The notes beneath the pieces were generated by a model. That model was not told where the DNA came from and searched no databases. It worked only from the letters and a program-made list of their open reading frames with translations. DNA of 64,000 nucleotides from Nitrospirota bacterium (lineage in GTDB: Bacteria > Nitrospirota > JACRHL01): contig JAOUFN010000007.1 in NCBI GenBank assembly GCA_029858285.1, positions 62,001 through 126,000 of the forward strand, given 5' to 3'. Of the stretch, positions 11,733-17,607 are shown piece by piece. How positions within the stretch are numbered: the stretch's first letter is position 1; each line of letters starts with the position of its first letter. Made by a program: the position numbers and the translations under genes.

Positions 11733-12107
11733 CTAACCTCGCGGGCGGGTATTCTGGCGTGAAATGGTGACGGTGACCCCGCCACCGATCTCCGGCACCG
11801 GCGGCGCCAGTTTTGTAACCGACAGTTCCAGCGCCGCCACCGGAAAGCGCTCCAGCAGCCGCCGGGAGATGTCCTCCGCCAGGCGTTCCACCAGCATGCG
11901 GGGCTCGCCGCTGGCCACCTCCACCACCTGGCGCGCTACCTCGGCGTAATTCACCGCATCTTCCAGCTTGTCGCTGTGGCCGGGCACGGAGGTATCCATG
12001 AACAGGGTCACGTCGGCGCGATAGGCCATGCCGTGCACCCGCTCCTCGGGGAACACCCCGCACGGGGCGGTAAAGTCGATGTGGTGAAGGGTCAGACGGT
12101 CGGTCAC
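11733..12107 (-). CDS. folB: Dihydroneopterin aldolase
   Basis: Cleaves 7,8-dihydroneopterin to 6-hydroxymethyl-dihydropterin and glycolaldehyde in folate synthesis. The 124 residues show GVFPEERVHGMAYRADV, carrying the catalytic Glu region, and a Lys in VTKLAPPVPE equivalent to the catalytic lysine. The frame is open further upstream, but family length favours the GTG at 12107. No Shine-Dalgarno is present. TATCAT lies eight nt upstream, so the mRNA may be leaderless. folE lies about 2.6 kb upstream on the same strand. Confidence 0.85.
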   Translation of the reverse strand: MTDRLTLHHIDFTAPCGVFPEERVHGMAYRADVTLFMDTSVPGHSDKLEDAVNYAEVARQVVEVASGEPRMLVERLAEDISRRLLERFPVAALELSVTKLAPPVPEIGGGVTVTISRQNTRPRG

Positions 12108-12159
12108 AGCGGGGGATGATAGCACGGGCGCCGTTTGTCGGCCCGGTGCGCGCGCCGAC

Positions 12160-12195
12160 AAAAAAAGCCCGCCCCTCGTTGCCGGGGGGCGGGCC
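12160..12195 (-). terminator. Terminator of erpA
   Basis: GCCCGCCCC pairs with GGGGCGGGC across a 10-nt loop, followed by TTTTTTT on the minus strand, 43 nt past the erpA stop and upstream of folB. Confidence 0.9.
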
Positions 12196-12237
12196 TTGCA
12201 AAACCGGGCGGCGCAACCGCCCGACAGATCGGGTGGC

Positions 12238-12597
12238 CTAGGCGCTGAAGGAGCTGCCGCAGCCGCAGGACGATTTGGCGTTCGGGTTGCTGATGGAAAA
12301 ACCCGCACCCTGCATGGTTTCCACATAGTCCACCTGGGCACCGGACAGCATCGGCACGCTCATGGCATCGACCACGAACTTGACGCCGGAGGTTTCCACC
12401 ACCTGGTCCATGTCGGTCACGGTGTTGTCGAAGTTCATGCCATACTGGTAGCCGTGACAGCCGCCGCCGGAGACGGACAGGCGGATGGCGTAGTCCTCCT
12501 TGCCCTCGGAAACGAGCAGTTCCTTGATCTTGGTGGAGGCGGCCTCGGTCACGTTGACGAGGGCGGACTCGGTGCTGGTTTGGGTATCGGTGGTCAT
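12238..12597 (-). CDS. erpA: Iron-sulfur cluster carrier, ErpA/IscA family
   Basis: A-type carrier that delivers Fe-S clusters to client enzymes. The 119 residues contain the three ligand cysteines: one in SGGGCHGYQYGM and two in CGCGSSF at the C-terminus. The ATG at 12597 has GGAGGA ten nt upstream. A 20-residue N-terminal extension precedes the conserved VNVTEAASTKIKELL. It lies downstream of the sigma-54-controlled zinc-ribbon gene but also has its own sigma-70-like promoter. Confidence 0.88.
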   Translation of the reverse strand: MTTDTQTSTESALVNVTEAASTKIKELLVSEGKEDYAIRLSVSGGGCHGYQYGMNFDNTVTDMDQVVETSGVKFVVDAMSVPMLSGAQVDYVETMQGAGFSISNPNAKSSCGCGSSFSA

Positions 12598-12713
12598 CGG
12601 GTTTCTCCTCCGTGGTTCCAGAATATCTGTATGCGGGATGGACGTCGTCGGACCGTGACGTTCACCCCGAGTGGGTGACACGTGCTACAGGTGAACAAAA
12701 TCCTTATCCGCCA

Positions 12714-12742
12714 ATCTTACCTCGTACCGGACATTCGGGCAA
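12714..12742 (-). promoter_or_regulatory. Probable sigma-70 promoter of erpA
   Basis: TTGCCC (12737-12742), a 17-bp spacer and TAAGAT (12714-12719) on the minus strand. The -35 falls in an 11-bp repeat. Each box is a 4/6 match. Confidence 0.45.
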
Positions 12743-12769
12743 GTCGCGGGCAAGTCGCGGGCAAGTTCG
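12737..12769. repeat. 11-bp tandem repeat upstream of erpA
   Basis: GGGCAAGTCGC at 12737 and 12748, with a third, diverged copy (GGGCAAGTTCG) at 12759. It sits at and upstream of the erpA -35 region. Confidence 0.75.
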
Positions 12770-12791
12770 TGGACAGGACCGGACAAGCGCC

Positions 12792-12986
12792 TCAGGCGCC
12801 CCAGTTCTTGCGCGACTTGCTGACGAACGGCTCCGGGCGGTTGGTGCGGTTGGCCAGAATCACCGGGTCCACCACCTCGCCGCAGGTCAGGCAGCGCCAG
12901 GCGGTAATACCGAGAACCCCGCTGTCGTCCAGCAGGTCAGTGAAACTGTCCGAGATCATGGCGTGGGTGCACCGGGGGCACTGCAT
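12792..12986 (-). CDS. 64-aa zinc-ribbon protein under a sigma-54 promoter
   Basis: Small protein with C3-x2-C6 and C32-x2-C35, a four-cysteine zinc or iron site, followed by a basic tail ending near KSRKNWG. The ATG at 12986 follows AGGAG at good spacing, so it is a real gene despite its size. A near-consensus sigma-54 promoter lies 55 nt upstream, with an array of GTTTCAT sites beyond it; few genes this small have such elaborate control. It has no DNA-binding helix that I can see. It could be a regulatory, adaptor or metal-handling protein. Family unknown. Confidence 0.8.
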   Translation of the reverse strand: MQCPRCTHAMISDSFTDLLDDSGVLGITAWRCLTCGEVVDPVILANRTNRPEPFVSKSRKNWGA

Positions 12987-13040
12987 GGCGTCGCTCCTGT
13001 GTTAGGCGGCCGGAAAAACCGGTCCGTCACAGGGGATTAC

Positions 13041-13056
13041 TACAATTTTGGTGCCA
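13041..13056 (-). promoter_or_regulatory. Sigma-54 promoter of the zinc-ribbon gene
   Basis: On the minus strand TGGCAC-CAAAA-TTGTA matches the -24/-12 consensus TGGCAC-N5-TTGCW with exact spacing; the only departure from the core is T for C after TTG. The predicted start is near 13031, 45 nt before the ATG. Confidence 0.75.
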
Positions 13057-13106
13057 CAATTTTGGGTGAAAGATAACCCCGTGAAAACACGGGAAAGTCG
13101 CAACAA

Positions 13107-13192
13107 ATGAAACGCAATGCCGGAGCATCATGAAACAAAAATGGTTCAAAAACGTTTCATAAATGGTGCAACGTTTCATTTTGGCATGAAAC
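13107..13192. promoter_or_regulatory. Array of five GTTTCAT/ATGAAAC heptamers (candidate activator sites)
   Basis: ATGAAAC at 13107 and 13130, GTTTCAT at 13154 and 13173, and ATGAAAC at 13186. They form inverted pairs 13130-13160 and 13173-13192. They lie about 75-160 bp upstream of the predicted sigma-54 start, the usual place for an enhancer-binding protein. The same heptamers occur at the promoter of the sigma-54 activator gene at 17.6 kb. A hairpin CCCGTG-AAAA-CACGGG (13078-13093) lies between array and promoter. Confidence 0.7.
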
Positions 13193-13263
13193 AAATATCC
13201 TAACAGGTTGTTTTATAACAATAGTAGCCACGATCTCCGGTGTCCGCCGCCTCCCCGGAGGCA

Positions 13264-14670
13264 TTATTTCCCGCATGAAACATCCTGCCGGGCGGTTCCC
13301 GCCTCCAGCGCCCGGTCCAGCACCTCGATGGTGTGCAGCACGGTGGCGCTCACGCCGCCCCGCGCCAGGGTGTCGTTCATGTGCATCTGGCAGCCGGGGC
13401 ATCCGGTGGCGACCACCGGCGCGCCGCTGGCGGCCACCGCCTGCACCTTGCGCGCCCCCACCTCCAGCGACAGGCCGTAGTGCAGGGCCGAAAACAGCCC
13501 GCCGAAGCCGCAGCAGCGGTCGGCTTCCCGCATCTCCACAAAGCCGCTGGTGACGGTGCGCAGGATCTGGCGCGGCTCCTCGGTCACCCCCATGCCGCGC
13601 ACCAGATGACACGGGTCGTGATAGGTCACCGCCATGTCCAGACGCGCCGCGCGGTCGGCGAAGTCGGTGTGGCCGAGGACATATTCGGTCACGTCCAGCA
13701 CCCGGCTGGCGAACTGTCGGGCCTGTTGTTGCATGCCCGGCTGCCCGGCGAACAGCACCGGATAGGTGTCGCGCAGGGTGGTGCCGCAGGAGGCGCAGGC
13801 GGTGAGCAGGGCATCCACTTGCAGGTTGCCGTAGCGGGCCATCACGTCCCGCGCCACGCTGCGCGCCCCCTCCCGGTCCCCCAGGGACAGCAGGGGGATG
13901 CCGCAACAGGGGGCGTCGCCGGGCATCACCACCTCCACCCCCAGGCGCCCCAGCGCCCGCAGGGTGGCGTGGCCGATGTCGGTGCTGGTGAAGTTGATGA
14001 CACAACCGGGAAAAAACGCCACCCGGCCCCGGACGGCAACGCCGGGCGGGGGAGAAATCACCTCCGGATAGCTGGAGGTCAGTGGACGGCTGCGCACCCC
14101 CGGCAGTTCCCGCTTGCGGCCACCATGGAAAAACGGCAGCAGCCGCGCCACCGGGCTGGTGTCGGAGATGCCCCGGTAAAGGGCGCCGAACAGCCGCCCC
14201 GGCCCCAGAAAATAGCCAAACCGGTTGCCGGCCACAATGAAGTGAGTCGCGCGCCGCAGCAGCCAGACGCCGATTCCCCGGAGCCCGCCGCCTCCACGCA
14301 CGGCCAGTTCCGCCTTGGCGGCGTAGAACACCTCGTCCAGGGGCAGGTGACGGGGGCACACCGGCACGCAGGCGCGGCAGTCGATGCAGGAACTGATCGG
14401 CAGGGCCACCCCCTCGGCGGCGGCGATGTCCCCCTGCAGCAGTCCCATGGCCAGGGCCAGCCGTCCGCGGGGGCCCATGGACTCCCGGTGTTCCTCCCGG
14501 TAGGTGGGGCACACCGGCATGCAGGCGCCGCACTTGATGCACGCCGCCAGCACCCCGCGCACGTCCTCCAGCGGCGGGGCGACGAAGCTGCCCGGCCACC
14601 ACGCGGCGGTCGGCACGCCGGGCCGCGTGACGGGGGGCGCTGCGGATGGGTTGAGGGTATCCGGCATCAT
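13264..14670 (-). CDS. GlcF/LutA-like Fe-S oxidoreductase with two 4Fe-4S and two CCG domains
   Basis: 468 residues. Two ferredoxin-type motifs (CIKCGACMPVCP near 44 and CIDCRACVPVCP near 94) are followed by two cysteine-rich CCG domains (DAPCCGIP and ADRCCGFGG). This is the layout of glycolate oxidase subunit GlcF and relatives that pass electrons from a flavoprotein dehydrogenase to quinones or disulfides. No glcD/E or lactate dehydrogenase is nearby. Instead the gene follows folE by 69 nt in the cluster sigma-54 activator/PTPS/folE, so a role in pterin or deazapurine redox chemistry is inferred. Two adjacent ATGs exist; GGAG lies upstream. Confidence 0.8.
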   Translation of the reverse strand: MMPDTLNPSAAPPVTRPGVPTAAWWPGSFVAPPLEDVRGVLAACIKCGACMPVCPTYREEHRESMGPRGRLALAMGLLQGDIAAAEGVALPISSCIDCRACVPVCPRHLPLDEVFYAAKAELAVRGGGGLRGIGVWLLRRATHFIVAGNRFGYFLGPGRLFGALYRGISDTSPVARLLPFFHGGRKRELPGVRSRPLTSSYPEVISPPPGVAVRGRVAFFPGCVINFTSTDIGHATLRALGRLGVEVVMPGDAPCCGIPLLSLGDREGARSVARDVMARYGNLQVDALLTACASCGTTLRDTYPVLFAGQPGMQQQARQFASRVLDVTEYVLGHTDFADRAARLDMAVTYHDPCHLVRGMGVTEEPRQILRTVTSGFVEMREADRCCGFGGLFSALHYGLSLEVGARKVQAVAASGAPVVATGCPGCQMHMNDTLARGGVSATVLHTIEVLDRALEAGTARQDVSCGK

Positions 14671-14739: not shown

Positions 14740-15339
14740 TCAGGGACGACGGATCAGGTCGAGGAATTCGGCCCGCGCCTTGGGGTCGTCCTTGAAGTTG
14801 CCGAGCATGGCGCTGGTGACGGTGCGGCTGTTCTGCTTTTCCACGCCGCGCATCATCATGCACAGGTGGCTGGCCTCCACCACCACCGCCACGCCGTGGG
14901 GGGCCACCGCCTCGTGGATGGCCCGCGCGATGTCCTGGGTGAGACGCTCCTGCACCTGCAGGCGGCGGGCGAACATGTCCACGATGCGCGGCAGCTTGGA
15001 CAGCCCCACCACCTTCTTGTTCGGCAGATAGGCCACATGGGCCCTGCCGTAGAACGGCAGCATATGGTGCTCGCACAGGCTGTAAAAGTCGATGTCGCGC
15101 ACCAGCACCAGTTCCGAATACTCCACATCGAACAGCGCGTCGTTGATCAGTTCGTGCGCGTTCTGGCTGTGGCCGGAGGTGAGGAACTGCAACGATTTGG
15201 CGACCCGCATCGGGGTGCGGATCAGGCCGTCCCGCTCCGGGTCGTCGCCCAGCAGTTGCAGCAGGCGCGCTACCAGTTCGGCCATTTCCAGGGTGTCGGG
15301 ATGGGCGGTGTGCTGGCCGGTATTTTCGAGAACGCTCAT
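14740..15339 (-). CDS. folE: GTP cyclohydrolase I
   Basis: Converts GTP to 7,8-dihydroneopterin triphosphate, the entry step to folate, biopterin and queuosine. The 199 residues include the zinc site ([10 protein letters not shown] and SHLCMMMRG) and the [15 protein letters not shown] and [14 protein letters not shown] segments of type IA enzymes. The frame is open upstream, but the ATG at 15339 is seven nt after the preceding PTPS gene and gives the normal length. Immediate linkage to the PTPS fusion suggests its product is passed to that enzyme. Confidence 0.95.
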
Positions 15340-15346
15340 GATGGTG

Positions 15347-16183
15347 TCATCCAAAGTATTCAAAGTAGTTGTCCCGGGTCTCCCCCAGCCGCACCCGGTA
15401 AAGGGTTCCGGCGCCCAGGCATTTTTCCAGCGTTTCCCACACCGTTTGAACAATGATCTCCGAGGTCGTCACGCGTCCGGCGAATTCCGCCACGTCCGTG
15501 TTCAGATCACGGAAATTGTACCGGTCCACCACCGCATTGCGAATGGTTTCGTCCAGATGGCGGTGATTGGCGGCAAGTCCGGTCTCGCCGTGCACATCGC
15601 CGCGCACGGTGACCTCCAGCGTGTAGTTGTGGCCGTGGCCGTTGGGGTTGTTGCAGTCGCGGAACACGGCGCGGTTTTCCGTCTCCGACAGGGCCGGTGC
15701 GTGCAGCCGGTGGGCGGCGGAAAAGGTGTAGCGTCGGGTGATGAGCATGGCGTCCTCCTGCCCGGGGCCGAGGGGCGATCCGGGGCGGTGGGTTTCGTAC
15801 CAGGTGTCGTCGGTCTCGAACAGCCGTACCCGCTCCAGCGTGCCGTGGGTGATGGCGGCCCCCAGTTCCTCCCAAAGGGAGACCAGCACCCGCTCCGTGG
15901 TCGGCACGCGGTCGCGGAAAGCCGGATGGTCGCCGTTCAGGTTGCGGTGGTCGTAGCGCCCGAGCACCTTGCCCATGGCCGCCTTGACGTCCTTGATGTT
16001 GGTGACCATGCCGGTGCGCGGGTCGGCGCGGCCGGCCACGGTGACCTCCACCAGATAGTTGTGCCCGTGGGGGCGGCTCTCCTCGCCGTACACCGCCAGA
16101 TTCTGCCCTTCGCTCCACTCCGGGTGCAGGCAGCGGTGGGCGGTGGCCACCTCGGCGCGTTTGGTGAGATAGACGGTGCCCAC
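15347..16183 (-). CDS. Tandem-fused PTPS/QueD protein with complementary catalytic residues
   Basis: 278 residues comprising two 6-pyruvoyl-tetrahydropterin synthase/6-carboxytetrahydropterin synthase domains (1-132 and 146-278). Each keeps the three-His zinc site: H16, H39, H41, then H158, H183, H185. Domain 1 has the Asp-His pair (YDHRNLN, D78-H79) but no Cys before HGH (GEESRPHGH). Domain 2 has that Cys (C177 in [11 protein letters not shown]) but Asn-Phe (N223-F224) in place of Asp-His. Both keep the C-terminal Glu (E123, E268). The GTG start at 16183 is five nt past the activator stop and is followed directly by folE. The product could be 6-pyruvoyl-tetrahydropterin or a preQ0 precursor. 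Confidence 0.85.
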
Positions 16184-16188
16184 CGGGG

Positions 16189-17607
<1,419 letters not shown>

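Follow-up and report, generated by a model that had tools for sequence, protein, structure and literature searches.

How could a PTPS protein work when two domains are joined in one chain and neither holds a full Cys/Asp/His triad? We interrogated this question for a gene in the window, the whole 64,000-nucleotide stretch of Nitrospirota DNA that was analyzed. Its first domain (D1) lacks the Cys, and its second domain (D2) lacks the Asp-His.

Two PTPS domains with complementary active-site residues

The Pfam PTPS model PF01242 matches two stretches of the 278-aa protein (E 6e-57; domain scores 103.6 and 92.1 bits). The three zinc-binding His and the anchor Glu are present in both domains. The gene, its domains and the active-site positions are as follows.

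15347..16183, minus strand: tandem PTPS gene, 278 aa, with a GTG start and a TGA stop; homologues have matching boundaries
15791..16183, minus strand: D1, PTPS fold, residues 1-131 (Pfam stretch 6-131; strands and helices in the model)
16136..16138, minus strand: His16, D1 zinc ligand (His in 63/64 and Cys in 1/64 aligned tandem rows)
16079..16081, minus strand: Glu35, at the D1 catalytic-Cys position, in ExxxHGH (Glu in 9/9 homologues from families f1, f6 and f24)
16061..16069, minus strand: His39-Gly-His41, D1 zinc motif (each His in 64/64 aligned rows)
15947..15952, minus strand: Asp78-His79, D1 dyad, proposed activator of Cys177 in D2 (Asp-His in 64/64 tandem homologues)
15815..15817, minus strand: Glu123, D1 pterin-anchor position (Glu in 64/64)
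15350..15748, minus strand: D2, PTPS fold, residues 146-278 (nearest solved structures, rat and human PTPS)
15710..15712, minus strand: His158, D2 zinc ligand, placed by alignment
15653..15655, minus strand: Cys177, D2 catalytic Cys within CNNPNGHGH (PTPS-II motif CxxxxxHGH, as given in PMC5041015)
15629..15637, minus strand: His183-Gly-His185, D2 zinc motif, placed by alignment
15512..15517, minus strand: Asn223-Phe224, D2, where Asp-His is expected (NF or HY in f1, DR in f6)
15380..15382, minus strand: Glu268, D2 pterin-anchor position, placed by alignment

Glu35 lies four residues ahead of the D1 HGH, at the same spot as the Cys of CxxxHGH enzymes. Glu123 presumably anchors the pterin, as the corresponding Glu does in PTPS. 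The residues that the preliminary description had assigned from the letters (the zinc His, D78-H79, C177, N223-F224 and the missing D1 Cys) are all correct by translation and alignment numbering. All four genomes of the window's family, f1, combine Glu in D1 with a D2 that has Cys and lacks Asp-His, and two genomes from a second family do so too. Conservation in four genomes rules out chance or a sequencing error as the source of this pattern, and purifying selection acts on the gene. L044 (genome G096) is the single tandem whose first D1 zinc ligand is Cys instead of His.

Gene neighborhood and pathway context

The tandem PTPS gene is flanked on both sides by closely spaced genes on the same strand.

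14740..15339, minus strand: folE (GTP cyclohydrolase I), starting 7 bases past the PTPS stop; a neighbor kept in 6 families
16189..17607, minus strand: sigma-54-dependent PAS/AAA/Fis-type regulator, retained in 4/4 f1 genomes at this place, 5 bases upstream of the PTPS gene
11733-14670, minus strand: GlcF-like iron-sulfur protein, ErpA-like gene and folB, downstream of folE

In 4/4 f1 genomes the genes run regulator, PTPS, folE, iron-sulfur protein, followed by the ErpA-like gene and folB where the contig extends. An ErpA-like gene also lies near PTPS in several other families (f39, f42, f9 and f18). FolB is present in most genomes, including 3/4 of f1, with one copy in the window tandem's own cluster, which makes a folate bypass improbable outside f6. 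In f6, FolB is missing in 3/3 genomes (G008, G017 and G025; loci L010, L011 and L028), HPPK is present and the tandem D1 is of the Glu type; the gap could be filled by another enzyme. We also considered a supply of tetrahydrobiopterin for aromatic hydroxylases, and rejected it because no aromatic amino acid hydroxylase (Biopterin_H) was found in 15 genomes.

Distribution of triad residues among tandem PTPS proteins

Searches covered about 400 genomes of the phylum and 270 of one class, and the resulting alignment holds 64 tandem rows. A genome-collection scan gave a single named relative, also the nearest named one, a Nitrospirota MAG (L034, 74%). Plasmid sequences gave just partial, single-domain QueD-type matches.

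Both triads are intact, with Cys and Asp-His in D1 and again in D2, in f39, f14 and part of f9. The D1 Cys is missing from f42, is replaced by Tyr in one f39 genome (L161) and by Glu in f24; all of these keep Asp-His in D1 and both Cys and Asp-His in D2. f6 combines Glu and Asp-His in D1 with Cys and Asp-Arg in D2, and f1 combines Glu and Asp-His in D1 with Cys and either Asn-Phe or His-Tyr in D2. Most of f9 and all f18 tandems examined carry Cys and Asp-His in D1 and a D2 that lacks the Cys, its zinc ligands and Asp-His being eroded. Two f9 tandems retain the D2 Cys but have lost the His of the dyad (DQ in L164, DA in L166), with the D1 Cys intact in both. As to the state of individual loci, the D2 zinc and Cys residues are gone and the D2 loop is shortened in tandems of Nitrospira-like and f18 genomes (L012-L024 and L037-L044). 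In one f39 genome (G376, L055/L098), the tandem PTPS frame is interrupted by an in-frame TAA, an error or a recent break.

These residue patterns run alongside gene arrangement. In f1, f6, f14, f24, f39 and f42, a standalone copy is absent and the tandem itself adjoins folE; in f9 and f18, a standalone copy adjoins folE and the tandem sits elsewhere. A standalone D2-type PTPS was seen beside folE in Nitrospira-like genomes and f18 (L035, L053, L020 and others).

The losses that the preliminary description called complementary are also co-conserved, judged by the family alignment. Homologues with both triads intact, which it had named as evidence against its idea, do exist, yet they look like the starting state rather than a contradiction. 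Judged from the aligned residues, the split-triad state of the window's family is derived, since relatives with both triads and relatives that lost the D1 Cys only are both present.

Loss events and constraint on the two domains

In a tree of the domains, all D1 group together (SH-aLRT 96) and all D2 group with the standalone copies. This topology makes a single ancestral tandem likely, and suggests that the f9 and f18 standalone copies came from the D2 side. Within the six folE-linked families, f1 and f6 have lost both the D1 Cys and the D2 Asp-His, whereas f24, f42 and a single f39 genome have lost the D1 Cys. The D1 Asp-His and the D2 zinc and Cys are kept throughout this group, so that each loss hits the other composite site. 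The two-sided chance of this is 0.125 to 0.016 for 4 to 7 independent loss events; the event number is uncertain because the tree leaves open one or more origins for the Cys-to-Glu change and for the Asp-His loss. By the AU test, a single D2 Asp-His loss common to f1 and f6 is compatible with the protein tree (p-AU 0.26), so that events may be fewer, and one versus two origins of the D1 Glu are likewise not separated. Two separate D2 losses are favored by the differing residues (NF/HY versus DR) and by f14, which is intact although it shares a class with f6. Loss of the D1 Cys only is seen in f24, f42 and L161, and loss of the D2 Asp-His with an intact D1 Cys in zero folE-linked families.

Sequence constraint differs between the two arrangements. 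Among f1 proteins, D2 is more similar than D1 (67.9 versus 62.3% identity; D2 higher in 6/6 pairs), whereas in f9 tandems with an intact-looking D2 the values are 61.0% for D2 and 79.7% for D1 (D2 higher in 0/36 pairs). More broadly, D2 conservation equals or exceeds that of D1 in the folE-linked group and is far lower in the f9/f18 group. Compared pairwise between the window and L034, D1 has a dN/dS of about 0.35 and D2 one of about 0.12, indicating purifying selection. D2 is therefore not decaying in the window's family, where it is the more constrained domain. These values make it very improbable that D2 lost its Asp-His by drift, as a decaying or dyad-independent domain with no shared site at all: D2 has decayed widely in f9 and f18, where some Cys-bearing D2 carry DQ or DA (L164, L166), but that decay accompanies an intact standalone copy beside folE, and f1 has no such copy and a D2 under stronger purifying selection than D1.

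A proposed site shared by D2 and D1

An AlphaFold2 model (window, L034 and 15 viral PTPS sequences) has a pLDDT of 94.3 and a pTM of 0.90, and D2 alone matches human PTPS in Foldseek with a TM of 0.95. Against uricase 4mb8_C, the TM-score normalized by target rises from 0.23 for D2 alone to 0.39 for both domains, and other uricases reach up to 0.46 with the tandem. The joint fit of D1 and D2 on a tandem T-fold suggests, at the level of the model, that the two domains are probably placed side by side as in uricase-type tandem T-folds. The preliminary description had pictured a trimer in which Cys177 meets the dyad of a neighboring copy, which is a poor fit to a two-domain chain whose model would better suit side-by-side T-folds of the uricase type. 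We set aside a trimeric ring for the tandem, as chains of two domains do not evenly fill a ring of three, except where D1 and D2 build rings of their own.

In mammalian PTPS, the Cys comes from one subunit and the Asp-His from the next. That its triad is assembled across subunits, as the preliminary description stated, agrees with Burgisser et al. 1995, whose title calls it 'intersubunit'. For the window protein, we consider one composite site common to D2 and D1 the best explanation, with a probability of roughly 60%; the D1-D2 contact itself is one that we infer. This explanation builds on the residues observed and how they are co-conserved, on purifying selection and folE linkage, and on a two-domain model of high confidence. 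The zinc (bound by H158, H183 and H185), Cys177 and Glu268 as the pterin anchor would come from D2; D1 would contribute Asp78-His79, which would activate Cys177 of D2. The substrate would be dihydroneopterin triphosphate from the adjacent FolE, the identity of substrate and product alike being presumed. Such a site could form within one chain or between chains; by analogy with bimodular QueF, it may lie inside one chain rather than between copies. If sites formed between like domains only, f1 and f6 would be without any complete zinc/Cys/Asp-His site, whereas if the D2 zinc and Cys are served by the D1 Asp-His, every folE-linked lineage keeps one.

The converse site, made of the D1 zinc and Glu35 with Asn223-Phe224 of D2, has lost the canonical triad and would be either silent or dependent on Glu35 as the base. 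A Glu base would need no dyad for deprotonation, so the dyad that served D1 would have been free to go, a plausible reason for the order of the losses. The earlier suggestion that half of the active sites work is partly supported: each chain has one complete set only if D2 and D1 share, and the other half is perhaps not dead, because Glu35, the D1 zinc ligands and Glu123 are conserved.

Several observations count against the shared site. Chief among them, the f9 and f18 D1 holds both triad halves and D2 neither, a distribution that points to D1-D1 contact rather than D1-D2 contact. Either the assembly changed in that branch once a standalone copy had taken over, or contact between like domains is the general rule and the f1 D2 works dyad-free. 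L164 and L166 lost the D2 His while the D1 Cys stayed intact, in a family in which D2 is relaxed. The D1 zinc ligands and Glu123 are kept though their site should be dispensable, unless Glu35 renders it active, and the D2 Asp-His is still present in f24 and f42.

Other readings of the D1 site

In an alternative reading, the working enzyme is D1, assembled into a homotypic ring whose Glu-type site consists of zinc, Glu35 and Asp78-His79, like malarial PTPS-III, and D2 is structural or regulatory. Glu occupies the Cys position in 9/9 homologues of f1, f6 and f24; Asp-His, HGH and Glu123 are universal in the D1 of tandems; and Nitrospira-like relatives hold the full residue set in D1 alone. The Plasmodium PTPS with Glu in place of Cys yields 6-hydroxymethyl-dihydropterin, and the f6 genomes lack FolB yet have HPPK. 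However, the D1 motif is ExxxHGH and that of PTPS-III is ExxHGH, FolB is present in 3/4 f1 genomes, including beside the window gene, and D2, the domain under more constraint, retains its Cys, Glu and zinc ligands. We consider this reading unlikely.

A quite unlikely reading adds a second activity, with the composite D2/D1 site carrying out PTPS chemistry and the D1 zinc-Glu35 site another pterin reaction. It would account for the conservation in f1 of both zinc sites and both anchor Glu, and for a Glu35 that is conserved rather than random, and the gene split in f9 and f18 suggests separate functions for D1 and for D2 or the standalone copy. Yet the neighborhood has no second pathway gene to mark another reaction, D1 evolves faster in f1, and the D1 position is occupied by neither Cys nor Glu in f42 and L161.

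Comparison with known systems

The motifs given for the family are CxxxxxHGH for PTPS-II and ExxHGH for PTPS-III (PMC5041015). D2 carries the PTPS-II motif and D1 does not. Rat (1b66/1gtq) and human (3i2b) PTPS-II are close relatives of D2 (phmmer 1.3e-31), and the window gene has folE as a neighbor, as has been reported for PTPS-II. The window protein differs in having two domains per chain, a D2 without Asp-His and a D1 without Cys. A PTPS-II activity, forming 6-pyruvoyl-tetrahydropterin from dihydroneopterin triphosphate, is putative, with folE linkage as its one sign in the sequence.

D1 resembles Plasmodium PTPS-III, in which Glu replaces the catalytic Cys and the product is 6-hydroxymethyl-dihydropterin (PMC2229834). 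Its ExxxHGH is not the PTPS-III motif: the window Glu lies at -4, not -3, from HGH, D1 is fused to a Cys-bearing domain, and FolB is encoded beside the gene. Replacement of FolB by a PTPS-III activity is a weak candidate, since this cluster and most relatives encode FolB and the motif differs; f6 is where it may still apply.

Bimodular QueF of the E. coli / V. cholerae type shares with the window protein both the tandem T-folds per chain and the division of Cys between N- and C-terminal domains. It belongs to another family with another reaction (an NADPH-dependent nitrile reductase), and the window protein keeps an extra D1 zinc-Glu site; QueF is not known to have a zinc/HGH motif. In bimodular QueF, the Cys was lost from the N-terminal module and kept in the C-terminal one, and the QueF motif of one T-fold is joined with the Cys and Glu of the other in a within-chain site (PMC5372742). 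A fuller parallel, an obligate two-domain PTPS with one composite zinc/Cys/Asp-His site per chain and a Glu35 zinc site for a different pterin reaction, is doubtful.

Urate oxidase likewise has two T-fold domains and one active site per chain, and the model of the window protein superposes on its domain arrangement. It is not known to use a metal, has different chemistry and sites between chains, and sequence kinship with the window protein was not found. Uricase has two T-folds per chain and forms a tetramer with four sites at the chain interfaces (PMC5138847). Tandem T-folds with one site per two domains are thus known from uricase and bimodular QueF; a literature search that covered few subscription papers found nothing on tandem PTPS. 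If the shared site is real, one phylum still shows the both-triad forms, the intermediates and the end states of two symmetric sites becoming one, and the tandem would join QueF as a second example of N- and C-terminal T-folds that divide the work in this way. The tandem also offers a simple test of the role of the Asp-His dyad in PTPS.

QueD (PTPS-I) belongs to the same superfamily as the window protein. The whole tandem passes the NCBIfam QueD model TIGR03367 at 107.2 bits, whereas the domains singly score 58.8 and 52.9 against a cut-off of 89.25. The QueD call on the tandem is thus an artefact of two summed sub-threshold domain scores. We rejected a QueD identity on the grounds that each domain falls below the cut-off, the motif is not CxxxHGH, and the same genome has a separate single-domain QueD (L001, 96.1 bits). 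Annotation pipelines can probably mislabel such tandems as QueD in the same way, through two weak domain scores added together.
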